From assembly GCA_946405115.1 (NCBI GenBank), contig CAMJGB010000052.1:1-10964 (forward strand): DNA of 10,964 nucleotides, in the 5' to 3' direction. Position numbers and translations under genes: made by a program. The first letter of the stretch is position 1. Each line of letters opens with the position of its first letter. Shown in pieces: positions 1 to 10,964 of the stretch. The notes beneath the pieces were generated by a model that was given only the letters and a program-made list of their open reading frames with translations, did not search any database and was not told the origin of the DNA. This DNA is from an uncultured Clostridia bacterium. Its GTDB lineage: Bacteria > Bacillota > Clostridia > Saccharofermentanales > Saccharofermentanaceae.

Positions 1-33
1 AGTCCCTCAAACGGAGATATAAGAAATGAATGA

Positions 34-1617
34 TTAAGCATCAATTCCGAAAGAGCTACAGGTAGCAGTCCACTCAGAGGAACCTGTGAAGCCTGCGATA
101 ACCTGTGATCTTGTAGCGCCGTTGTTAAGAGCGTTGATCCAGTTCTCGAGACCAGCCTGGTCAGGCTTTCTGTCGAAGAATACCTTGTAGAGAGTTGTTA
201 CGAACTGCTCATCATCGAGGTTTCTGGAAGCGAACTCGACTGAACCGAAGAATCCGTTTGCAACCTGAGTACCGGACTGCTGCTTAGAGTTAAGAAGATT
301 GATCCAATAAGCTCTGCCCTCGGAATCTGCATTACGGTTAAGAGCGCTTACATAAAGTCTGTCGACGAAGCCCTCAACACCGGTACGTGCAGCGCCGGCT
401 ACCAAAGTAGCGGGAGCAGAAACGGATGCAGATGCAGCGGGTGTCTCAGTCGCTGCGGGTGTCTCAGTCGCTGCGGGAGTCTCTGCAGGTGTAGCGGGAG
501 TCTCAGGATTTTCGACGGGAGTCTCTATAGGAGTCTCGTCTGCAGTAGGAGTCTCGTCGATGACGGGTGTCTCATCAGCAGTGTCGGAAGTGATGGGTTC
601 GAAGCCCGTTACCATAAAGTCGAATCCAACGGGGCACTCAGCGTAGTTACCTGTGTAAATGTAGTATGTCTCGCCTTCCTGAAGTACAGTGCTGAGGCGA
701 TAGTTGAATGAATTACCGTAGTCGTCGCTGATAAGAATGAGGTTCATATCGGAGTCGTAAAGCTCAACGCGGGGATCGAGCGTAGGAGTGATGACAGGAT
801 CATCTCCGAAATCATTGATATCAGGAGCGCCGTAAGACTCGATTACATATGTACCTGTTGCTGCAGGTGTGAAGTTGTACCAGCAGCCGTGGTCGTCTTC
901 GAAGCCTGCACATACACACCAGGACTCTTCGTATTCGATCTTAACGGAGAAGAAAGGAATCTTGTCCTCTTCTTCCTGCTGTGCAGCAGCTGAAGCAGAC
1001 TGCTCGTACATTGCAATCTCATCTGCAGTTACAGGATAGAGATTAACAGTTCCGTTATCGCTGATAGTTACACGGAAACCGACCTTGCCGATATCGAGCA
1101 TAAGCGCACCCTTGTTCGTCATATGGATGCGGATACGATTGTTAAAATTATAGAACTCACCGCCATTGAATTCTAAGCAGTTATGACCGTCAACGTACAA
1201 TGCGTAGTTACCTTCGGGAAGTACTGTGGCATCATTAACTGCACGGATAATCTGTCCGTCTGTGAATTCAACCTGTGACTCCTCGTGTTCATCTACAGGA
1301 ACGATTAACATAATCTCGTCACAGTCTGTGTCGTCCTGAGGATCATTTGTCAAACCGGAGAGTCTGTTTAAAGTTTCTTCGTCGTTTCCTCTGGAATTGA
1401 TTGAGATACCGTCGTTTGCATCTTCGGACTCCTCGGAATCATGGAGAATACCTGTGATCCTGCCCAAGGGCGTTACGCCGTCACCAATTACAATACCAGC
1501 CGACTCATCGCACTGTGCGTAGTCGATCTCGTCAGCAAAAACTGCTGTGCTGCCGAGCATTACTGTTGCTGCAACGGACGCTGCCATTACCTTACCGATC
1601 ATTGTGTTAACCTTCAT
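34..1617 (-). CDS. Secreted protein with PPC-like domain, Thr-Pro linker and C-terminal DUF4214
   Basis: A 527-residue exported protein of unknown exact role. Residues 1-28 form a Sec signal peptide: basic start, Ala/Val-rich core and a likely cut after VFA, before DE. Residues about 30-215 are acidic and unrecognised. Residues about 246-337 look like a pre-peptidase C-terminal (PPC) beta-sandwich: WYNFTPAATGTYVIES, then a VELYDSDMN strand and a GETYYIYTG strand. Residues about 345-400 are a Thr-Pro-Glu-Ala linker typical of surface proteins. Residues about 413-520 match DUF4214, with two related halves (NADSEGRAYWINLL and KPDQAGLENWINAL). DUF4214 is common at the ends of secreted clostridial proteins and has been linked to surface association, but its function is not established. 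No LPXTG or peptidase catalytic motif is visible. The ATG is chosen because AAAGGAG lies 10 bases upstream (about 1628-1634) and the signal peptide starts there. The gene is separated by 322 bp from the upstream operon, so it is probably transcribed separately. Confidence 0.88.
   Translation of the reverse strand: MKVNTMIGKVMAASVAATVMLGSTAVFADEIDYAQCDESAGIVIGDGVTPLGRITGILHDSEESEDANDGISINSRGNDEETLNRLSGLTNDPQDDTDCDEIMLIVPVDEHEESQVEFTDGQIIRAVNDATVLPEGNYALYVDGHNCLEFNGGEFYNFNNRIRIHMTNKGALMLDIGKVGFRVTISDNGTVNLYPVTADEIAMYEQSASAAAQQEEEDKIPFFSVKIEYEESWCVCAGFEDDHGCWYNFTPAATGTYVIESYGAPDINDFGDDPVITPTLDPRVELYDSDMNLILISDDYGNSFNYRLSTVLQEGETYYIYTGNYAECPVGFDFMVTGFEPITSDTADETPVIDETPTADETPIETPVENPETPATPAETPAATETPAATETPAASASVSAPATLVAGAARTGVEGFVDRLYVSALNRNADSEGRAYWINLLNSKQQSGTQVANGFFGSVEFASRNLDDEQFVTTLYKVFFDRKPDQAGLENWINALNNGATRSQVIAGFTGSSEWTATCSSFGIDA
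441..476. repeat. Two exact 18-bp tandem repeats in the Thr-Pro linker
   Basis: The 18-base unit GTGTCTCAGTCGCTGCGG occurs twice back to back (441-458 and 459-476), with degenerate copies further along. In the protein it encodes the repeated ATETPA element around residues 383-394. Such repeats can change copy number by slippage without breaking the frame, altering linker length. It lies inside the secreted-protein gene. Confidence 0.8.
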
Positions 1618-1808
1618 TGTCTTAATTCTCCTTTTTCTTGTTCGTAGAATTTGTTCTGTTTTTGTTAGCCACGAGTATTTAAACGCGACAATGAATGCAA
1701 CCCAATCAATAATGTTGGCTTGTTTTGTTGCTTAAGCGACAGTTATCGGCGTCTTTGTGGAAATAGATGAGGAGTTCAACCAGGAATAATTCGTTAAACA
1801 ACATAAAA
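1618..1808 (-). promoter_or_regulatory. Leader and upstream region of the secreted-protein gene
   Basis: No open reading frame of note is present. The 60 bases next to the start codon are purine-rich on the minus strand and end in a strong AAAGGAG ribosome binding site. A promoter for the minus-strand gene must lie here or within the neighbouring repeat array. I find only weak matches, such as TTGCAT followed at 15 bases by AATACT, so I do not name one. No hairpin long enough to be a riboswitch was seen by eye. Confidence 0.35.
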
Positions 1809-1921
1809 TTCATCACCGGGTTCATCACAATTGATAAAAGTGATGAGCAAAGTGATGAATAACGCCTTTTTTCATCACATCATTCATCATATTTTGCGAA
1901 AGTGATGAACCGTGTGATGAA
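1809..1921. repeat. Phased array of eight alternating 8-bp words (TTCATCAC / GTGATGAA)
   Basis: Eight copies of one 8-bp word: TTCATCAC at 1809 and 1821; GTGATGAG at 1840; GTGATGAA at 1852; TTCATCAC at 1871; TTCATCAT at 1883; GTGATGAA at 1902 and 1914. Six are exact and two have one change. Members of each same-direction pair are separated by 4 bp, and pairs by 11 bp, so start-to-start spacing is 12, 19, 12, 19, 12, 19, 12 and the full period is 31 bp, close to three helical turns. Spacer sequences are not conserved, only their lengths. It lies between the stop of the methyltransferase gene (18 bp away) and the upstream region of the secreted-protein gene. It could be an operator array, a REP-like structured repeat, or a paired hairpin that stops transcription: on the minus strand, the hairpin at 1859-1809 is followed by TTTTATGTTGTTT. 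Presence is directly visible; function is not known. Confidence 0.85.
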
Positions 1922-1939
1922 TTTCCTAATAAAGGTCTG

Positions 1940-2563
1940 TCAGTCCTTCTTATAATCCAATCTCAGCAACGCCTTGCCGTTGGGCAGAGGTTCTTTGTGA
2001 GACAGAATCTTCTTATAATTAATCTCATTCATTGCGGCATCCAATTCAGACTCTTCCATCTGATGGTGCACTTCATCGAGTCGGTCGAACGAATGAAGAT
2101 ACGGTGAATCGGAGACCCACTGTTTGGTATCTGTATTGATCTGTATTACGCATGAAACATAGTCAGGATCAACATTAACTACAGCATCCTTGAAGACGTC
2201 GTAACCAATATACTCGATAAGAAGATTGGCGATTACCAATCCTGCATGCGGCAGTATATCTGACTCATTAATAAGATCAATATTCATGCATCTGAGCACA
2301 TCAGAAAGATCAGCATATCTTTGTTCCACAACACGTAAATATTCTTCGTTGATATCAACGCCGTAGACAGTGCGATACTTATCACGGTCAACATGCTCCA
2401 GGCCGTTGCCGCCTGCAATTCCGAACACGATCACCGAATCGACAGGATAGTCATTAAACTGCGACTTCATGATCGCATTCATTGTCTGAAGCTGCTTAAC
2501 AGAATCCAGACTCATGTGATTCTCATAATCATCAAGCTTTATCTCTTCCCAAGGATTAGACAT
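1940..2563 (-). CDS. Class I SAM-dependent methyltransferase
   Basis: A 207-residue cytoplasmic protein with a Rossmann-type methyltransferase fold. The glycine-rich SAM-binding motif I is VIVFGIAGGNGLEH (residues about 44-57). An acidic ribose-binding residue follows in VYGVDIN (Asp70), and a motif-IV-like strand lies at LVIANLLIEYIG (about 109-120). The N terminus MSNPWEEIKLDDYENHM resembles stand-alone clostridial methyltransferases of unknown substrate. The frame stays open to an ATG at 2680, but I chose the ATG at 2563 because AAAGGAG sits at the right distance (about 2570-2576) and the family begins there. It lies 126 bp after the acyltransferase stop, with no clear terminator between, so it may be the last gene of the operon. 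It could modify a glycan precursor or be unrelated to the envelope genes; the substrate cannot be read from the sequence. Confidence 0.85.
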   Translation of the reverse strand: MSNPWEEIKLDDYENHMSLDSVKQLQTMNAIMKSQFNDYPVDSVIVFGIAGGNGLEHVDRDKYRTVYGVDINEEYLRVVEQRYADLSDVLRCMNIDLINESDILPHAGLVIANLLIEYIGYDVFKDAVVNVDPDYVSCVIQINTDTKQWVSDSPYLHSFDRLDEVHHQMEESELDAAMNEINYKKILSHKEPLPNGKALLRLDYKKD

Positions 2564-2689
2564 ATTAATCTCCTTTAACTCTCTGTCCGCCGAATGCGTG
2601 AATTGACCTGGTACCTGCTTTAACTCTTCCGCCTTGAAGACTTCCCTTCTCATAACCTTCGCCGCGCCCGAAGCAATCATAGATTCCGG

Positions 2690-3823
2690 TCATACGCGGC
2701 GCACCGCAAGAAACTTCAGCTTGTTACAAGCTTTGCAGGTAAGGGCATAAAGAAGATAAGAAGCTGCGCCTATGACGAACATTATTGCAATCCACTTAAG
2801 GTAGTTAACAGCGAAGATCCTAGGTGTGTAGTAGAACATGTCGACCCATTTTGTGAGGCCCCAGATGTCGTACCAGAATTCGTTGTCGTGGATGATGTAG
2901 ATCATGAAGGTGGTTCTGGCAATATAGTTTATGGGCTTAATGCTTCCTATGTTGATCCTTCTTGTGATCTCAAATATAGTAACCGCCATTACTATCGTGA
3001 TGATTCCCGTGTCAGTAATGCCGAATACCGGCTGCTTGAAAGTATCAATGCCTGAGCCCGCAAGCTGCCTTATGCCTACATCCTCAAGGTATTGAGCTAT
3101 CTTTGTGGTCGTGTTGTTGTAATAGGAAAGATAAAGGAGAGCTAAGATTGCTACAGGTATCGCAGCAAGAACCCATGCCCGTAGCTTTTCGAAAGGATTG
3201 TACTTACGGATATAGCCTCCGAGAGCGTAGAAGAAGATTCCGCCTGCGACTATATTCAAGTTATCCATGAGATTCTCGAGAAGCTTGCTTGTGAACAATA
3301 AGCTTACGATAAGGAAAAGGACGACTAATAATCTTCTATAGTGATCCCTATCCATCTTCCTTAATCTGTCGTTAAGGAAGATTGCACCTATAACGATCAC
3401 GATAAAGTAGTAGCCTATGAACCATACCCAATCGTTTACATATCTTATGTCGATCAGATTTACAGGAGTCGGGATCTTACTGCCTTGGATCTTGTAAAAA
3501 ATCATGGAACCGAGAGACAAGATCACCGCTCCGAATACAAGCTGAAGAATGAGCCTTTTACCGATCTTGGTAAGATCAACGGTCTTGCCTTCCCGGCCGG
3601 CCATATAGTATCCCGATATAAGGAAAAAGCTGGCATTGGCGATGCTGCCGAAGGACATTATCACCTGAAAAATAAATAGTCTGTTGTAGAATACCGGATT
3701 CGAGTAAACACTGTCATCCAACTGATAAAGAACACCATGCGCTGTAAGGTGGTACGCGATTATAAGAATCATCGCGACAATCCTTAACAGCTCAAAGTTT
3801 GACTCCCTGTTCTTTGCCGCCAT
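2690..3823 (-). CDS. Family-3 membrane acyltransferase (AT3)
   Basis: A 377-residue integral membrane protein with about ten hydrophobic segments. The AT3 signature is present at the N terminus: FELLRIVAMILIIAYH gives the R-X10-H motif (Arg14, His25) implicated in acyl transfer in this family. Other family features are FFLISGYYM (about 66-74), WFIGYYF (about 134-140) and a late IYIIHDN (about 308-314). AT3 proteins move acetyl or other short acyl groups across the membrane onto glycans, lipids or peptidoglycan; the bacterial OafA and OatA groups are examples. This one lacks a C-terminal SGNH domain, so it is of the membrane-only type. The ATG is supported by GGGGAGG at about 3829-3835. It follows the small membrane protein by 67 bp and probably shares its transcript. 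Its likely job is O-acylation of the surface polymer made by its neighbours, but the acceptor is unknown. Confidence 0.92.
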   Translation of the reverse strand: MAAKNRESNFELLRIVAMILIIAYHLTAHGVLYQLDDSVYSNPVFYNRLFIFQVIMSFGSIANASFFLISGYYMAGREGKTVDLTKIGKRLILQLVFGAVILSLGSMIFYKIQGSKIPTPVNLIDIRYVNDWVWFIGYYFIVIVIGAIFLNDRLRKMDRDHYRRLLVVLFLIVSLLFTSKLLENLMDNLNIVAGGIFFYALGGYIRKYNPFEKLRAWVLAAIPVAILALLYLSYYNNTTTKIAQYLEDVGIRQLAGSGIDTFKQPVFGITDTGIITIVMAVTIFEITRRINIGSIKPINYIARTTFMIYIIHDNEFWYDIWGLTKWVDMFYYTPRIFAVNYLKWIAIMFVIGAASYLLYALTCKACNKLKFLAVRRV

Positions 3824-3890
3824 TCTGACCTCCCCAGCTCATTTGACTGCAACGCACTCTGTTATAGAACAGCTATATTAATTGAACGTA

Positions 3891-4106
3891 TCAGATATCT
3901 GTCTTTTCCTCAGACACTTCAAGAATATCGTCTGATTCAACTTCCTTGTTTCTGTTCTCGTCTATTCCAAGCTTATCGCTTACCTTCTTCTTAGCCTTAC
4001 GGACAAATACACAAACCACGGCTCCGACAGCGATAACTATACCGGCGATAGCCTGGATCAAATATGTCATAACGGAAGGATCAATATACAGATCTTTATA
4101 CAACAT
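3891..4106 (-). CDS. Small single-pass membrane protein, 71 residues
   Basis: I do not recognise a named family. Residues about 13-35 (TYLIQAIAGIVIAVGAVVCVFV) form one transmembrane helix with an AGIVIAVGA small-residue face suited to helix packing. A positive cluster RKAKKK (about 36-41) follows, which predicts an outside N terminus and inside C terminus. The last 30 residues are highly charged and mostly acidic. The start is supported by AGGAGAGG at about 4114-4121. It begins 31 bp after the fusion gene stop and precedes the acyltransferase by 67 bp, so it is part of the same operon. It may be an accessory or tether for a neighbouring membrane enzyme; this is inference from position and topology. 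The good ribosome site and sensible topology make it a real gene rather than a chance frame. Confidence 0.8.
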   Translation of the reverse strand: MLYKDLYIDPSVMTYLIQAIAGIVIAVGAVVCVFVRKAKKKVSDKLGIDENRNKEVESDDILEVSEEKTDI

Positions 4107-4137
4107 AGTCTTACCTCTCCTCTAACATCTTCATTAA

Positions 4138-6054
4138 TTATATATCTTTCTTCCTGGCAGCAATCTTTTCCTGCAAAGATCTTATGATATACTTCGCACC
4201 TTCTTCAGCTGCACTTCCGTGATTATAAACAAATCTGTCATACATATCACCTATCACCTTCTTGTACTCATCGCTGTGATCAAGAAGATGGTTTACAGCC
4301 TCTGAAGTTTTTGCAACTTCCTCTACATCAAGATTCATGCCGATCTTATCGCGAAGATATATGTTTATGGGCTCAACAGTAAGCTTCTCCCACTCAGGAT
4401 TCATAACCTTCATCGGCGTATTAATGTAAAGCACCGGCTTCATTGTCGTAAATGAGTATTCACACGCAATGTCAGACCAGTCTGTTATCAGGACATCAGC
4501 CTCCATGACAGGATTGTTGGAAGTAAAGTCAGTCTGGATCTCGATATTAGGCACATCCTTATACTTATCGACCAGCGCCTGCATCTTCTCTGCCTTAATT
4601 CTTACTTCCTGCGGATGAGGACGCACGATAATGTCGTAATTGCCGTCCTTCAAACTATTAAGGATATCGTCCAGGCAAAGATCGATGATGTTATCCTTCT
4701 GCCAAGACGGCGCGATTAATATTAACGGTCTCTCATGCTTAGCTATCTGTCCCGAAGCAGTCTTCGTCTGATAATCAGCACACATATCGTCGATAAGTGG
4801 ATAACCTATCTTAAGTAAATTGCGCTCCTTAAGATCATAAACTTTCTGCGCCTCGACCTCTTCATCGTACTGATGTTCACCAACGCAGAATATCGTATCG
4901 AAGTTATCTGTCGCGCCTTGACGGAATGTAAGGTTATTGGAGCCCATTCCATGCTGCACGAACACGTACTCGATGTCTTTCCTTACATACGAACGCTTAA
5001 TGTGATACTTGCCAAGATCCGGCATCGTCATTACCACCATGTCGGCATCCATCTTCATCATAAGCGTAATGAGTCTGTTCTCGCCAATGTAGTACGGTCT
5101 GATCCTGGTCTCTGTCTTCGCCTTCTCGAAAATCCCGTCGTTGGGATCCGACGTGATGTAATGTATCGTGAGCTTCGTGTACTTAAGAAGATAATCGATA
5201 TATCCCTTGAAGTACTTATAGAAGCCGTTAGACTCGGAGTAGAACACGATGTGCTTGTTAACTACTTTGAAGAAACGCTTGTAATCGGCGCGCTCGCGTC
5301 TTTTCGCAGGTGAGAAGAAGCCCTCCCCCTTACGCTTGCCTGAAGCCTTAATGGAGTCGAGTTCCTTACGGCTCTTTTCGAGAGCTTCGTAATCCACGTA
5401 GCGCTTCGGCCTTACTATGGCGTTTAATGCGAAAAGCTGCAGTACAGCAAAGCAGTTGCTTGCAACCCAGTAAAGCACGGTGCCGATAAAGACGAAGAAT
5501 CCAAGATAAAGCGAGAGTCCTACGGAGATCGCCATGGTAAAGATCTTGTTCCCGATAGACTGCTCCGACTGGAGGATATCGAATTTATCCTGCACAAGGC
5601 ACAGCACAAGCGAAGCCAAGCCTGCAACGAGAGGAACCCAGATAAACGCTATTCCCTGCTCACGCGGGATCATGCCGAGATCCACGGGGCCGAAAGTCAT
5701 GTCGATTATGCCTTCGGCGATACCGGCTTTAATGACCTCAACGACACCCATCAAAATAAACAGCTGTATGATCAGCGGAACAGTTGAAAGAAGCGGATGA
5801 TAGCCGGCCTTCTTCTGAAGCTCCGACTGCTTCTCTGCGATAACGTCATTCTGACCGTAGTACTTAACCTTCAGCATGTTGATATCAGGCTGAATCTTAA
5901 CGATCTTAATCGAATTAAAGTAGGTCCATACCGTGACGGGCAGGATCAGCACTTTACTTAGAAAGGTAAACAGTATTATGGCCAGGCCGTAGTTACCGGC
6001 GAGGCTATAACACCAATCCATTATCAAACTGAAAAATCTTACAAGGTAACTCAT
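4138..6054 (-). CDS. Fusion of YidC/Oxa1-type membrane insertase and CDP-glycerol glycerophosphotransferase
   Basis: A 638-residue two-domain protein. Residues 1-213 follow the YidC/Oxa1 core: an amphipathic start, TM1 (about 19-40), a charged hairpin loop with KIQPDINMLKVKYYG, TM2 with the HPLLSTVPLIIQLFIL signature (about 86-105), then three more membrane segments to about 213. There is no lipoprotein signal, unlike most Gram-positive YidC proteins. Lys34 (FLSKVLILPV) occupies the place of the usual groove arginine. Residues 214-258 are a strongly basic linker. Residues about 259-630 match the TagB/TagF family: QHGMG (His368), APSWQ (448-452), RPHP (His480) and DVLITDWSDIACEY (520-533), the expected CDP-glycerol binding and catalytic elements. 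The ATG is one base after the upstream sulfatase stop and has no good Shine-Dalgarno, so translation is probably coupled to it. An in-frame extension to 6216 runs antisense-free but out of frame through the sulfatase end and is rejected. Role inferred: glycerophosphate transfer to a membrane-linked glycan, with the YidC part as anchor or insertase. Confidence 0.9.
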   Translation of the reverse strand: MSYLVRFFSLIMDWCYSLAGNYGLAIILFTFLSKVLILPVTVWTYFNSIKIVKIQPDINMLKVKYYGQNDVIAEKQSELQKKAGYHPLLSTVPLIIQLFILMGVVEVIKAGIAEGIIDMTFGPVDLGMIPREQGIAFIWVPLVAGLASLVLCLVQDKFDILQSEQSIGNKIFTMAISVGLSLYLGFFVFIGTVLYWVASNCFAVLQLFALNAIVRPKRYVDYEALEKSRKELDSIKASGKRKGEGFFSPAKRRERADYKRFFKVVNKHIVFYSESNGFYKYFKGYIDYLLKYTKLTIHYITSDPNDGIFEKAKTETRIRPYYIGENRLITLMMKMDADMVVMTMPDLGKYHIKRSYVRKDIEYVFVQHGMGSNNLTFRQGATDNFDTIFCVGEHQYDEEVEAQKVYDLKERNLLKIGYPLIDDMCADYQTKTASGQIAKHERPLILIAPSWQKDNIIDLCLDDILNSLKDGNYDIIVRPHPQEVRIKAEKMQALVDKYKDVPNIEIQTDFTSNNPVMEADVLITDWSDIACEYSFTTMKPVLYINTPMKVMNPEWEKLTVEPINIYLRDKIGMNLDVEEVAKTSEAVNHLLDHSDEYKKVIGDMYDRFVYNHGSAAEEGAKYIIRSLQEKIAARKKDI

Positions 6055-6055
6055 A

Positions 6056-8392
6056 TCAATAGAATGTATCCGTCCAAGGTAGTCTGTCCGTCGGACCTTT
6101 GTCTCCCGTCTCGCGAAGATCTGAAATATCTCCCGTGTATGTATATGCATAGAAACAGTTAAGATCAGACATTCCCGTGCTAAACACCTTGGGAACTTCA
6201 GGGAACTCATCATCAAAGCATCTCAAATAATATGTCCTCTCGCGCTGTTCATCCTGTGTATGATCGAAGATCGAAGTACCGAGATCTGAATATTCACCTC
6301 CGGCAAGGTAAATTACGGTAGGCATCATGTCCGTCTCGGATATAGGTGCATTTGTAACATTAAATGCATCCTGAACCTGTCCGAAAGGCTTAATGAAGAA
6401 TATTGGCTGTGCATCTTCATATCCCCACGGCCTTCCGTGATCAGCAGTAATTATGATTGTTGAATTGTCATATACTCCAAGTTCTTTCAACTGATTAAGA
6501 TACTCTTCAACAAGAACCCAGCAACCTCTCTCGGTTTCAAGAAGCGTCGGATCAGAAGCATTACGACAATCAGCGTCGACGCTAAGCGGTGTGTGTACAC
6601 CGTACATATGCTGCAATATGAAGTAATTGGCGGAATCGTCAGTCTGAAGGCCGGATGCAAGAAGCGTATCGTAGTATTCAGCGTTGCCGAGGATAATGTG
6701 TGTATTAACTGTTCGGCTGTCATCACGGCTCAAAACATCGAGCGCACCGGTGAAATCATCACCCGTAAAGTAGAAATTGTCTTTAAGGAACAACGGACAG
6801 AACCTGAATTCACTCGATCTTATAAGCATATCTCTGACAACATCATCATGAACTACAAACTCACAGTCCATTACTTCCAAATTAGATATCTTACCGAGTG
6901 CGTCGTGTCTGGCCTCGTTAGTCACAAAGGTAAACTCATTCGTGTACAGATTAAAGCGATATCCCTGCTCTGCCAGTCTATCGTAGAAATTATTATTTCT
7001 TTCGTTATCCCATGCATATGAGAACCATTCGTTAAGCGAGATCGTAGGATCAAATTCCGTTCCGGAGATCATGTAATTAACCGAATAAACGGAACTCTCG
7101 TAATGGCAATCCGCATTGTTGTAATAAGTAAAATCCTTCAGTATGTCTGCAACTTCAGGATATGTCTCTAGACATTCATCTATATAAGAATTGCTGTACG
7201 CATCAAGAAGGATGACGATTATATTGTTGTTTGCTGACACGGTGAACTGGTCATTTCCAGACAGATAGTACTGTTCAAAGTCAAATCTTGAAAAAGCATT
7301 CTTCGGTGATTGAAATAAGGTTACCGTAAGGCTCGTAAGCTGCATGGCAAGAAGCGCGAGGCATGCAAAGACGATAACTGTCTGTCCTTTGTTGTTGCGA
7401 ACTGCAAAGACTATCACTATAGGCAAAATAATGAGCACTGCCCATATAACGGCATTTACTGCGATATCGGCACTTGAGAAACCCATCTCACTTCCGTCCA
7501 TTAAACCAAGGTTACGGTTAAGGAAATTAAGCTGAACATACATCGCTAGGTCTATTCCCATTACAAGGCCGAACACTACATTGAAAGCTTTGCCGGGGAA
7601 CAACGCCATGATACCGGCAACACCTACACTGATAACAATGGCAGTAACGACGAATTCCAAAACGAAGTCACTCAGGATAAATTCAAGTTCTCCGGCATTC
7701 ATAAGGAAAAATTCGATAGGTGAATGGATCAGGAACATATAAGTAAGCAGGAATGCAGGTGCCATGGATTTATACATTCTGACTGTCCATTCGGATTTAT
7801 GGAAGATAAACGCTGACACTCCGACTCCCAGAATTATTGCAAGCGAGACTGCGAAGTACAGTATCTTTGATGGTGTCGCAGCCGGGGATTCAAAGCTCAT
7901 GCGGTAACACATGGTCTGTCCGAAGTCCACACCATCCGAAGAACATCCTGTTCCGTCCGGATTACAGAAGATAGTGACGCCGTCTCCGTAAAGAGCATCC
8001 GAAGTAAAATCAATATAATAAGTCTTCCCCGCACTATCCATAATAGGTGAAGATAACTCGATCGCATGGTAATAATTATCGCGAATAACGTCGGCGTTGA
8101 TCTGCCATTCTTCTATCGTCTGACCCTGATCATCTCTCAAGGTTACGAATACAGTCGGACGGCTTGTTGTGTTATAACGACCGAAAATAAAGTAGACAGC
8201 TTTCAGACCGTCCTTCTCGGGGTTTAACTGCTGGGTATAAGTAAAGCCCTGATTGATCTCGGGAAGCATGGATACAGGTTCGAATCCATCCGTCATATCC
8301 GGAACGCTGTGAAGACCCGTAAAAAACGACAGGCAGACAAGCGCCGTAAACACAGCTGTAAAAACCAAAGCTACCGTTCGCTTAACAGTCAT
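6056..8392 (-). CDS. Membrane-anchored sulfatase-fold transferase, promoter-distal copy
   Basis: A 778-residue protein of the alkaline phosphatase/sulfatase superfamily, related in layout to LtaS-type phosphoglycerol transferases. TM1 is at about 7-26. An outside beta-rich domain with three cysteines (143, 150, 162) spans about 28-175. Six more membrane segments lie between about 177 and 361, and the catalytic domain follows outside (about 386-778). Visible active-site elements are IIVILLDAYSN (metal Asp397), DCHYESSVYS (candidate nucleophile Ser434), GVHTPL (His600) and ITADHG (Asp651, His652). The sulfatase CXPXR maturation motif is absent, so a phospho-group transferase or phosphodiesterase is more likely than a true sulfatase. 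Start ATG 8392 is preferred over an upstream GTG at 8404 because GGGAG lies just before it. About 88% identical to the neighbouring copy, with no indels. It ends one base before the fusion gene. Confidence 0.88.
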   Translation of the reverse strand: MTVKRTVALVFTAVFTALVCLSFFTGLHSVPDMTDGFEPVSMLPEINQGFTYTQQLNPEKDGLKAVYFIFGRYNTTSRPTVFVTLRDDQGQTIEEWQINADVIRDNYYHAIELSSPIMDSAGKTYYIDFTSDALYGDGVTIFCNPDGTGCSSDGVDFGQTMCYRMSFESPAATPSKILYFAVSLAIILGVGVSAFIFHKSEWTVRMYKSMAPAFLLTYMFLIHSPIEFFLMNAGELEFILSDFVLEFVVTAIVISVGVAGIMALFPGKAFNVVFGLVMGIDLAMYVQLNFLNRNLGLMDGSEMGFSSADIAVNAVIWAVLIILPIVIVFAVRNNKGQTVIVFACLALLAMQLTSLTVTLFQSPKNAFSRFDFEQYYLSGNDQFTVSANNNIIVILLDAYSNSYIDECLETYPEVADILKDFTYYNNADCHYESSVYSVNYMISGTEFDPTISLNEWFSYAWDNERNNNFYDRLAEQGYRFNLYTNEFTFVTNEARHDALGKISNLEVMDCEFVVHDDVVRDMLIRSSEFRFCPLFLKDNFYFTGDDFTGALDVLSRDDSRTVNTHIILGNAEYYDTLLASGLQTDDSANYFILQHMYGVHTPLSVDADCRNASDPTLLETERGCWVLVEEYLNQLKELGVYDNSTIIITADHGRPWGYEDAQPIFFIKPFGQVQDAFNVTNAPISETDMMPTVIYLAGGEYSDLGTSIFDHTQDEQRERTYYLRCFDDEFPEVPKVFSTGMSDLNCFYAYTYTGDISDLRETGDKGPTDRLPWTDTFY

Positions 8393-8411
8393 ATTAACTC
8401 CCACTCCGACT

Positions 8412-8445
8412 TGTTATACTAGTTTTACAATCTACAAGTATAACA
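8412..8445. promoter_or_regulatory. Extended -10 promoter inside a 9-bp inverted repeat, between the sulfatase genes
   Basis: On the minus strand TGTTATACT (8437-8445) fits an extended -10 element (TGnTATAAT, one mismatch). The same positions form one arm of a perfect 9-bp inverted repeat with 8412-8420, loop 16 bases. The TGnTATACT is kept at the equivalent place in the other unit (10837-10845), although the surrounding region has diverged; the inverted repeat is not kept there. No good -35 is seen. A start point near 8430 would give a leader of about 38 bases. The second arm could bind a regulator or form a hairpin in the message. Confidence 0.4.
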
Positions 8446-8454
8446 CATGCTCAT
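8425..8454 (-). other. Vestigial start of the fusion gene at the duplication junction
   Basis: After the promoter-proximal sulfatase stop comes ATGAG, identical to the first five bases of the real fusion gene, placed one base after the stop as there. The frame then reads only MSMCYTCRL before TAA. It is best read as a relic of the duplication breakpoint and not as a peptide gene. It could still act as a short reading frame that ribosomes enter after the sulfatase stop. Confidence 0.55.
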
Positions 8455-10849
8455 ATCAATAGAATGTATCCGTCCAATGTAGTATCGCAGTCGGGCCGTT
8501 TGCTCCGGTAGCATGAAGATCCGAGAGATCTCCCGTATATGTATATGCATAGAAACAGTTAATCTCGGACATTCCCGGACTGTTAAGTTTGGGCACTCTC
8601 GGGAGATCTTCATCAAAGGCTCTCGCATAATATGTCCTCTCGCGCAGCTCATCATCTGTGTGCTCAAAGATCGTAGTGCCGAGATCCGAATATTCGCCTC
8701 CTGCAAGATAGATCACGGTAGGCATCATGTCCGTTGCAGATATAGGCGCATTAGTAACGTTAAATGCATCCTGAACCTGCCCGAAAGGCTTTATGAAGAA
8801 GATCGGCTGTGCATTTTCATATCCCCATGTTACGCCATGATCAGCAGTGATTATAATCGTTGAATTGTCATATACTCCAAGTTCTTTCAACTGATTAAGA
8901 TACTCCTCAACAAGAACCCAGCAACCTCTCTCGGTCTCAAGCAAAGTCGGAGCGGCAGCATTACGGCAATCAGCGTCGACGCTAAGAGGTGTGTGTACCC
9001 CAAACAAATGCTGCATTATGAAATAATTGGAAGAGTCGTCCGTCTGAAGTCCTGAAGAAAGGAGCATATCGTAGAATTCGGCGTCTCCCAGAATAAAATG
9101 CGTATTAACCCCAAGACTGTTATCGCGGCTCAAAACATCGAGCGCACCGGTATAATCTTCACCCGTAAAATAGAAATCGTCTTTAAGGAACAACGGACAG
9201 AACCTGAATTCACTCGATCTTATAAGCATATCTCTGACAACATCATCATGAACTACAAACTCACAGTCCATTATCTCCAAATTAGATATCTTGCCGAGTG
9301 CATCGTTCTTAGCCTCATTGTTCAGATAATCAAACTCATTCGAATACAGGTTAAAACGATATCCCTGCTCTGCCAGTCTATCGTAGAAATTATTATTCCT
9401 CTCGTTATCCCATGCATATGAGAACCATTCGTTAAGTGAGACTGAAGGATCGAATTCCGTTCCGGAGATCAGGTAATTGATCGAATATACGGATCCTTCG
9501 TAATGACAGTCTGCATTGTTGTAATAAGTGAAATCCTTAAGTATGTCAGCAACCTCAGGGTATGTCTCAAGACATTCCTCAAGATAAGCATTGCTGTACG
9601 CATCAAGAATAATAATGATTACATTATTGTTTGCCGACACCGTAAACTGGTCGTTGGCCGACAGATAATACTGCTCATAATCAAATCTGGAAAAAGCACT
9701 CTTCGGGGATTGAACCATGGCTGCAGTAAGGCTCGTAAGCTGCATAACAAGAAGCGCAAGACAAGCGAAAATGACTGCGGTCTGCCCCTTGTTGTTACGA
9801 ACTGCAAAGACTATCACTATAGGCAGAATAATGAGCACTGCCCATATAACGGCATTTACGGCGATATCGGCACTTGAGAAACCCATCTCACTTCCGTCCA
9901 TTAAACCGAGGTTGCGGTTAAAGAAATTAAGCTGAACATACATCGCTAGGTCTATTCCCATTACAAGGCCGAACACCGCATCGAAAACCTTGCCGGGAAG
10001 CAATGCGATGACACCTGCAGCACCTACGCTGATTACAATCGCCGTTACAACAAATTCCAGAACAAAGTCACTCAGGATAAACTCAAACTCTCCGGCATTC
10101 ATAAGGAAGAATTCAATGGGTGAATGTATCAGGAACATATAAGCAAAAAGGAATGCCGGCGCCATGGCTTTGTACATCCTTACCGTCCATTCTGATTTAT
10201 GGAAGATAAAGGCTGAGATTCCGACTCCCAAAACTATTGCAAGCGAGACTGCGAAGTACAGTATCTTTGATGGTGTCGCAGCCGGGGATTCAAAGCTCAT
10301 GCGGTAACACATGGTCTGTCCGAAGTCCACACCATCCGAAGAACATCCTGTTCCGTCCGGATTACAGAAGATAGTGACGCCGTCTCCGTAAAGAGCATCC
10401 GAAGTAAAATCAATATAATAAGTCTTCCCCGCACTATCCATTATTGGAGAAGACAACTCAATCGCATGGTAATAATTATCACGAATGACATCAGCATTAA
10501 TCTGCCATTCTTGTATTGTCTGACCCTGATCATCTCTCATGGTCACGAATACCATCGGTCTGCTGTTATGGTTATAACGTCCGAAAAGAAAATAGACTGC
10601 TTTAAGACCGTCTTTCTCAGGGTTGAGCTGCTGGGTATAAGTAAATCCCTGGTTGATCTCAGGAAGCATGGTAACTGGCTCAAAACCGTCCGTCATATCC
10701 GGAACGCTGTGAAGACCCGTAAAAAACGACAGGCAGACAAGCGCCGTAAACACAGCTGTAAAAACCAAAGCTACTGTCCGCTTAACAGTCATATCTATAT
10801 CCACCCCATTATGATGTACTTATTATTCAATCCTAAAGTATATCACGTC
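8450..10849 (-). repeat. Tandem duplication, promoter-proximal unit (2,400 bp)
   Basis: Second unit of the head-to-tail duplication. Its low-coordinate end keeps the TGATATGAG sequence that, in the other unit, is the sulfatase stop plus the start of the fusion gene. Here it runs straight into the upstream region of the other sulfatase gene, which marks the duplication junction near 8446-8450. Confidence 0.85.
8456..10792 (-). CDS. Membrane-anchored sulfatase-fold transferase, promoter-proximal copy
   Basis: The first gene of the operon and a tandem paralogue of the next gene, also 778 residues with identical layout: TM1, outside beta-rich domain, six membrane segments, outside catalytic domain. 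The same key residues are kept: VIIIILDAYSN with Asp397, DCHYEGSVYS with Ser434, GVHTPL with His600, ITADHG with Asp651 and His652. Ser433 of the other copy is Gly here, which favours Ser434 as nucleophile. By hand alignment about 95 of 778 residues differ. Differences cluster after ADHG (VTW against RPW), at about 487-496, and in the last 75 residues, while about 93-184 are identical. This suggests a shared reaction with a possible shift in acceptor or substrate. ATG 10792 is chosen to match the paralogue; a GTG at 10804 is in frame but has no support. A GGGGTGG sequence upstream is the ribosome site. Confidence 0.88.
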   Translation of the reverse strand: MTVKRTVALVFTAVFTALVCLSFFTGLHSVPDMTDGFEPVTMLPEINQGFTYTQQLNPEKDGLKAVYFLFGRYNHNSRPMVFVTMRDDQGQTIQEWQINADVIRDNYYHAIELSSPIMDSAGKTYYIDFTSDALYGDGVTIFCNPDGTGCSSDGVDFGQTMCYRMSFESPAATPSKILYFAVSLAIVLGVGISAFIFHKSEWTVRMYKAMAPAFLFAYMFLIHSPIEFFLMNAGEFEFILSDFVLEFVVTAIVISVGAAGVIALLPGKVFDAVFGLVMGIDLAMYVQLNFFNRNLGLMDGSEMGFSSADIAVNAVIWAVLIILPIVIVFAVRNNKGQTAVIFACLALLVMQLTSLTAAMVQSPKSAFSRFDYEQYYLSANDQFTVSANNNVIIIILDAYSNAYLEECLETYPEVADILKDFTYYNNADCHYEGSVYSINYLISGTEFDPSVSLNEWFSYAWDNERNNNFYDRLAEQGYRFNLYSNEFDYLNNEAKNDALGKISNLEIMDCEFVVHDDVVRDMLIRSSEFRFCPLFLKDDFYFTGEDYTGALDVLSRDNSLGVNTHFILGDAEFYDMLLSSGLQTDDSSNYFIMQHLFGVHTPLSVDADCRNAAAPTLLETERGCWVLVEEYLNQLKELGVYDNSTIIITADHGVTWGYENAQPIFFIKPFGQVQDAFNVTNAPISATDMMPTVIYLAGGEYSDLGTTIFEHTDDELRERTYYARAFDEDLPRVPKLNSPGMSEINCFYAYTYTGDLSDLHATGANGPTAILHWTDTFY

Positions 10850-10884
10850 TTCTTATTATTATGGGATTTTGCTTATTCTTTCAA
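10837..10884 (-). promoter_or_regulatory. Candidate promoter(s) of the envelope operon
   Basis: Two candidates overlap. One is an extended -10 TGATATACT at 10837-10845, conserved in the duplicated unit. The other is TTGAAA (10879-10884) with an 18-bp spacer to AATAAT (10855-10860), each one base from consensus. Either would transcribe the first sulfatase gene and, as spacing downstream is short, probably the following four to five genes. Confidence 0.45.
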
Positions 10885-10964
10885 AACAAAAGACTGAATA
10901 CCCTATTTTGTCGATCCTGTCAGATAAGATTCTCGGCCCATTTCTTTAGATCGGATTCGGATAC
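10846..10964. other. Upstream intergenic sequence at the window edge
   Basis: An AT-rich stretch beyond the duplication with no convincing gene. Apart from the candidate promoter elements described separately I see no long hairpin or repeat. It continues past the window, so a neighbouring gene cannot be judged. Confidence 0.4.

Follow-up and report, generated by a model that had tools for sequence, protein, structure and literature searches.

What kind of element is the regularly spaced array at positions 1809-1921 of contig CAMJGB010000052.1, and what might read it? Positions 1 to 10,964 of this contig, from an uncultured Clostridia bacterium of the Saccharofermentanaceae (GenBank assembly GCA_946405115.1), form the stretch called the window here. 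Judged from sequence comparison, the array is probably a solo, nuclease-free copy of a genus-wide family of word-specific phased arrays read by cognate mobile nuclease units. It consists of eight TTCATCAC words, six exact and two with one change, separated by gaps of 4, 11, 4, 11, 4, 11 and 4 bp throughout, as a first-pass annotation made from the letters alone had described. Word starts and strands are 1809+, 1821+, 1840- (CTCATCAC), 1852-, 1871+, 1883+ (TTCATCAT), 1902- and 1914-, and the features are as follows.

1809..1921, no strand: whole array of eight words, four arms of 20 bp (8-4-8) in the orientation ->->, <-<-, ->->, <-<-
~1834, ~1865 and ~1896: array dyads, spaced 31 bp
1809..1828, plus strand: arm 1, TTCATCAC cggg TTCATCAC
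1840..1859, minus strand: arm 2, TTCATCAC tttg CTCATCAC (written on the minus strand)
1871..1890, plus strand: arm 3, TTCATCAC atca TTCATCAT
1902..1921, minus strand: arm 4, TTCATCAC acgg TTCATCAC (written on the minus strand)

Exact copies of TTCATCAC are absent from the rest of the window on both strands, in agreement with the annotation. The single word with at most one mismatch is not enriched in the window (17 matches against 13 expected), while the pair TTCATCAC-N4-TTCATCAC with at most three mismatches has 5 matches, each in or overlapping the array, where 0.19 are expected; a count of 5 was reached in 0 of 200 shuffles. The unusual feature is thus the arrangement, not the word. With a word-free four-word score (maximum 48), the three overlapping 51-bp units of the array scored 45, 42 and 45. 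Outside the array the window reaches at most 33, in a coding repeat at 435, and 50 mononucleotide shuffles likewise reach no more than 33. Rfam gave 0 matches in the window at the gathering score.

A pair search of the same genome revealed a second TTCATCAC array at 3211-3323 of contig C144, identical in length and geometry to that of the window; beyond these two arrays the genome contains no further TTCATCAC pairs with at most one mismatch. Directly abutting the second array lies a third (C144 3098-3210), with identical geometry and a different word, TTCCTGAT/CTCCTGAT. The same geometry with a different word in one genome indicates that the geometry is fixed and the word free. The 1,088 bp of C144 that hold a 227-aa gene and both arrays (L034:2264-3351) correspond to 15 bp in a relative, G030. 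Such arrays may also account for some contig breaks in these rumen genomes, contig C77 being one that begins with another unit of the TTCCTGAT word.

The annotation had proposed a pattern search in the host and its relatives. The full four-word pattern (at most three mismatches) was found in the own genome only, and in 0 of 98 relatives. A species-specific site, as this word-fixed search alone suggests, was overturned by covariance-model and word-free scans, which found arrays with differing words. Single pairs with at most one mismatch match in 46 of 85 genus genomes, mostly through one recurrent string, TTCATCAGGGTGTTCATCAC, that we judged unrelated to the array family. A covariance model built from seven 51-bp units of three loci in the own genome matched 13 of the 85 genus genomes at E<=0.01, counting the own genome, and 22 at E<=1, and several of the weakest matches were discarded after reading. 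Six loci (L158, L159, L160, L161, L163 and L165) were excluded with architecture missing or coding-like, and the status of L151 and L153 was left undecided. L151 and the weak L162 and L164 (E ~0.8) were retained in the neighbour table, L164 also among the solo arrays. The arrays read have a period of 62 or ~72 bp, sometimes with two words in one compound array, and their words include TTCATCAC, TTCCTGAT, CTCTTCAC/TTCTGCAA, ATTCATAA, GTTCTCTG, GTCCTCTG and others. The family belongs to rumen Saccharofermentans-type bacteria, Saccharofermentans being the presumed genus name. Among the roles that the annotation listed, an uncatalogued intergenic repeat family is the one that holds, and the family is genus-wide. 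Random drift in AT-rich DNA, which it had named as the finding that would undo its interpretation, is refuted by the shuffles, the second array of identical geometry and the genus-wide family, and we give chance practically no weight. A separate hairpin-like repeat of ~83 bp (GCCGTAAAACTTGCCATAGC...) occurs in three tandem copies at L148:1984-2212 in G110.

The partner of the arrays is a multicopy gene for a ~250-aa PD-(D/E)XK nuclease, with matches in 84 of 85 genus genomes (1 to 11 per genome where present). In 59 of 70 nuclease loci, a subset of the matches and mostly top-ranked ones, a four-word unit with a word-free score of 31 or more lies within 450 bp. Shuffled flanks gave 0 of 70 (maximum 29) and segments 730-1200 bp away 0 of 68 (maximum 30). 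These distant segments are largely coding; the intergenic control consists of 29 flanks of orthologues of a gene next to the window array, one of which (L316) reached the threshold score of 31 with a different word and was set aside. Omitting the six loci that had led to the nuclease leaves an array in 53 of 64, and among non-redundant nucleases (translations with stops, shorter than 200 aa or with identical last 150 residues excluded) 72 of 90 have one. The score thresholds of 31, 34 and 36 were picked after shuffles had been inspected. The 12-bp word step is specific; at the lower threshold of 31 a 10-bp step is also found in 21 of 70 loci, probably through TTTTTGTCGG repeats. The link to the nuclease, like the geometry and the family itself, is a direct observation.

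With a slightly wider loop range units were identified in 62 of the 70 loci, the better array being upstream in 37 and downstream in 25. The upstream majority and the likeness of fixed, phased sites to an operator favour a model of autoregulation, in which binding of the nuclease to the array controls the nuclease gene and the solo arrays make up the remainder of the regulon, with no mobility function. We consider this unlikely, as the array is 3' of the gene in the remaining 25 of 62, solo arrays are found 5' or 3' of various genes and are absent beside the orthologues examined, and a word-independent TTTGTCG box could do the regulating. This box lies at most 200 bp upstream of 52 of the 70 nuclease genes, against 3 of 70 on the opposite strand. 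It resembles the Spo0A core TGTCGAA (PMC3485338) and may be a Spo0A box. TTTGTCG boxes often repeat every 10-11 bp upstream of nuclease starts (L166-L235). Regulation through the same binding is nevertheless a serious candidate for a second role beside the one that we favour, of arrays read by mobile nuclease units.

Word and nuclease vary together. Over 51 loci, one identical pair included, word similarity increases with nuclease identity (Mantel r 0.34, 0/5000). Identity of the N-terminal domain (N-domain) predicts the word when the catalytic domain is accounted for (partial r 0.19, 0/2000), and the catalytic domain adds nothing given the N-domain (partial r 0.03, 413/2000). For pairs with catalytic identity of at least 65%, an N-domain identity under 45% goes with a shared word in 4 of 70 pairs, and one of 55% or more in 16 of 20. 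Because linkage of upstream arrays to the N end could favour this correlation, downstream arrays, to which the catalytic end is nearer, were tested alone (26 loci), giving 0.137 for N-domain given catalytic domain (55/2000) and 0.007 for the reverse (904/2000).

One site allows a filled and an empty state to be compared. Past the stop codon of one gene, the relatives G039 and G030 have a block made up of array, promoter and nuclease (957 bp and 967 bp, respectively), and in the own genome the flanks are 4 bp apart. The right flank is 96.4% (G039) and 85.3% (G030) identical to the own sequence, and G102 has only the left flank in common with the site. Between G039 and G030 identity is 94% in the left flank, 53% in the array, 69% in the promoter and 46% in the N-domain, then 87% in the linker, 82% in the catalytic domain and 84% in the right flank. 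Array and reader domain thus differ jointly while the rest is orthologous, and since array, promoter and N-domain are contiguous a single exchange would suffice. The last codons of both nuclease genes lie in sequence that the own genome also has. Reading of the G039-versus-own junctions at this one site revealed no terminal inverted repeats or target-site duplication.

Assignment of the nuclease rests on E137, K152, D167 and E182, invariant in 20 sequences, and on fold matches obtained with a model of pLDDT 92; K152 is on a different strand from the K of the textbook PD-(D/E)XK motif. Pfam (E 0.001), NCBIfam (two nucleases scanned) and PDB sequence searches did not name the protein. Relaxing Pfam to E 0.1 for 20 nucleases gave nine scattered one-member matches, with PF01797 (HuH Y1 transposase) absent from them, in a search that covered the nucleases and no other genes. 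Viral contigs contained 0 nuclease relatives and 0 exact word arrays, plasmids likewise gave no match, and phages gave only catalytic-domain similarity, in 3 records. The catalytic domain (residues ~118-240 of P0001) is related to the C-terminal domain of PDC-S68, large candidate defence proteins, with matches for 20 of 20 members (best 1.6e-16). Host defence enzymes held by chromosomal arrays acting as decoys or safety sites would fit this kinship and the 1 to 11 nuclease matches per genome in 84 genomes. Such a defence or addiction role is nonetheless improbable, the least favoured of the functional models: no neighbour gene family (grouped without names, from flanks of ~1.2-1.5 kb) occurs in more than 5 of the 70 nuclease loci, the compared site has either both array and gene or neither, and arrays are also found without the gene. 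An earlier comparison of few loci had some neighbour families in 2-6 loci.

The spacing of the arrays bears on how they might be read. Within 45 segments, 84 dyad-to-dyad distances fell at 30-31.5 bp (54), 35.5-37 bp (24), 24.5-25 bp (3), 41-42 bp (2) and 16 bp (1); distances above 45 bp were excluded, and those within one array are not independent. Shuffles gave no dyad distances in 140 segments. With the 20-bp arms and the gaps of ~0, 11 and 21 bp observed on reading the arrays, neighbouring arms would be ~20, 31 and 41 bp apart, or 2, 3 and 4 turns. The clustering, itself plainly observed, of dyad steps at 31, 36 and 25 bp points to binding of B-DNA on one helix face rather than to RNA, and the annotation's view that fixed spacing with free spacers suggests protein contacts on one helix face is right. 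Dyad-step class tracks nuclease kinship at all identity caps tried.

A rival view is that the unit folds as RNA or single-stranded DNA, in a REP-like or cruciform manner, and is recognised by shape, with the catalytic domain resolving or cutting the fold. A fold does not require these steps, and pairing does not require the inner and outer words to be, as they mostly are, alike as direct repeats. In its favour, arms pair in 91% of cells with both-side changes (7 units), a phage 'Holliday junction resolvase' profile picks up 15 of 20 nucleases, and Foldseek gives the N-domain weak matches to dsRNA-binding domains. The window, again, has no Rfam family, and the N-domain alone has no clear fold match, an absence that we do not count as proof of a new fold. 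A fold of this kind seems to us doubtful, slightly more so than the operator.

For arrays read by mobile nuclease units, the probable course is as follows. The N-terminal (alpha-beta3-alpha) domain would read the 8-bp word of each array family, word by word. With four words to each 51-bp unit, all facing the same side of the helix, several protomers could load around a two-fold axis and so place their catalytic domains across the dyads. The nuclease would cut or nick at or near the arrays, which may then spread via break repair or joining. Array, promoter and nuclease gene would form a ~0.95 kb unit gained or lost as one block, and arrays would also spread without the gene, as in the window, on whose copy a reader of TTCATCAC similar to the G045 nuclease (L130/L171) may act or have acted.

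Nuclease remnants were absent from all 25 solo loci compared, and the TTTGTCG box lay within 200 bp in 1 of 22 solo loci, against 52 of 70 nuclease starts. Solo words resemble nuclease words of the same genome more than random draws do (3.13 versus 2.28, n=28, the mean above all 400 draws), and 13 of 28 match such a word singly at p<=0.1; this comparison drew on a part of the nucleases, and independence among the 28 is limited, G058 alone supplying 10. Array-bearing blocks are duplicated between different genes in G058 (163 bp at 97.5% and 207 bp at 86%), and one G110 locus holds such a block twice (106 bp at 94%). Of the own nucleases three of four were fetched, with array word ATCCAC (L196), array word TTGTCTCA (L197) and no array at threshold (L198). 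The window word has no match among them, its best match being the G045 nuclease (4.25).

Around the window array lie two genes and one degenerate arm, which belongs to a second word family with an intact counterpart on C144.

1767..1786, no strand: degenerate arm of the second word family (family word TTCCTGAT), ATGAGGAG TTCA ACCAGGAA, 2 mismatches
34..1617, minus strand: secreted DUF4214 protein gene, start 192 bp from the array
1940..2563, minus strand: other neighbour gene, stop 19 bp from the array

The array sits between the start of the former gene and the 3' end of the latter. Orthologues of 1940..2563 in 29 relatives (of 41 with a match) have no matching array within 480 bp after them. 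On the other side, 1541-1741 (the DUF4214 gene start and upstream sequence) is similar in G102 (73%), with 43 bp also in G039. The G102 homology ends at ~1741, short of the array, and the similarity ends in a GTTGCTTAAGCGAC stretch; in the two G102 stretches and one G039 stretch matching this region no array was seen. Conservation beside the orthologues of one gene is thus not a property of the array for either window neighbour; the one gene that makes an exception is the nuclease, which has an array upstream in six species. The gene pair is not kept in the three closest relatives read (G030, G039, G058). Taken as a whole, the annotation's interpretation stands for protein contacts and an intergenic repeat family; its operator of the secreted-protein gene has no support from these flanks, and its bidirectional terminator is unlikely because the second own copy stands between two divergently oriented genes. 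Of the arrays compared, 4 have a DUF4214-type gene nearby. Further along the window, a single frame (4138-6216) fuses YidC/60KD_IMP membrane-insertase and CDP-glycerol glycerophosphotransferase domains, a fusion that seemed unusual, and two adjacent, very similar 782-aa frames (6056-8404 and 8456-10804), the first matching Sulfatase, form a tandem duplication.

Several points weigh against a nuclease-read, mobile family. At threshold 11 of 70 nuclease genes have no array, and for 15 of 28 solo arrays the genome they come from offers no matching nuclease word at p<=0.1. No partner of the window copy is visible in its own genome, whose assembly (84.6% complete) contains 4 nuclease matches (best E 1.8e-22), none of them near the TTCATCAC or TTCCTGAT type. 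On which side of the gene the array lies tracks kinship only when identities above 70% are included, as inheritance alone would give. Array and gene being linked, the joint variation of word and N-domain, although directly observed, could be partly linkage, and the downstream-only comparison, which runs in the same direction as the full set, is a test of weak power. The shared last codons at the filled site fit insertion, though loss may also account for them, and the direction is not settled at this one site. Binding and cutting at the arrays are what we infer from sequence, and a nuclease beside its own target would need to avoid self-cutting.

If the reading is true, the consequences would be considerable. 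Natural reader/word pairs probably number in the hundreds in one genus, and one site shows a joint switch of array and reader; such a family would contain a protein-DNA recognition code that can be learnt, and the protein would set the spacing of the array (31, 36 or 25 bp between dyads). Dozens of natural word/reader pairs make the sequence specificity of a small DNA-binding domain directly testable, and the stepwise dyad spacing offers a physical model of assembly open to testing. A mobile system of nuclease plus array would join the few known bacterial routes to intergenic repeats; we know of no case in which this enzyme type spreads them. Among open-access papers, searched by title and abstract start, none describing such a nuclease-and-array system was found. 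Whether the ~0.95-kb unit, a nuclease gene with its own phased recognition array and an exchangeable N-terminal reader, constitutes a new class of mobile element, with the recognition code that would go with it, is a suggestion that we make tentatively, at somewhat less than even chances.

Among the closest known systems are REPtrons (TnpA-REP/RAYT), in which, according to PMC8266576, a DNA-cutting enzyme gene lies beside palindromic repeats in alternating orientation, with scattered intergenic cognates and co-evolution. The nuclease gene likewise stands beside repeats, and cognates of its repeats are found dispersed through the genome that carries it (13 of 28 solo arrays). In contrast, the enzyme here is PD-(D/E)XK-like and not HuH/Y1, GTAG/CTAC occurs within 8 bp outside the array edges in 0 of 19 arrays, and each repeat consists of a single word in four to eight phased copies. 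The introduction of that paper describes tnpA-REP as mostly single copy and without evidence of mobility (PMC8266576), whereas the nuclease occurs in several copies and one site, occupied in some species, is empty in another. Unlike with homing endonucleases of the EDxHD/Vsr-like type (I-Bth0305I), the array beside the gene is intact and not split by it, one word recurs at least four times, the many paralogues differ in word, and solo arrays occur. TnsA of Tn7 differs in that the nuclease has no constant transposase/ATPase partner, as the neighbour families indicate, and that, at the site compared, just one end of the unit has an array. Integron attC sites, with 8-4-8 arms and an unpaired centre, look similar on paper, yet here the boxes within an arm are direct, not inverted, and the copies are tandem. 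In the specificity subunits of Type I restriction systems the recognition domain is exchanged while the rest remains orthologous, and the switch of the N-domain between G039 and G030 in an otherwise orthologous protein follows this principle. The difference from Type I restriction, and from restriction-modification generally, is that the nuclease has no constant neighbour such as a methyltransferase (none in more than 5 of 70 loci) and that its site would be a chromosomal array carried with the gene.
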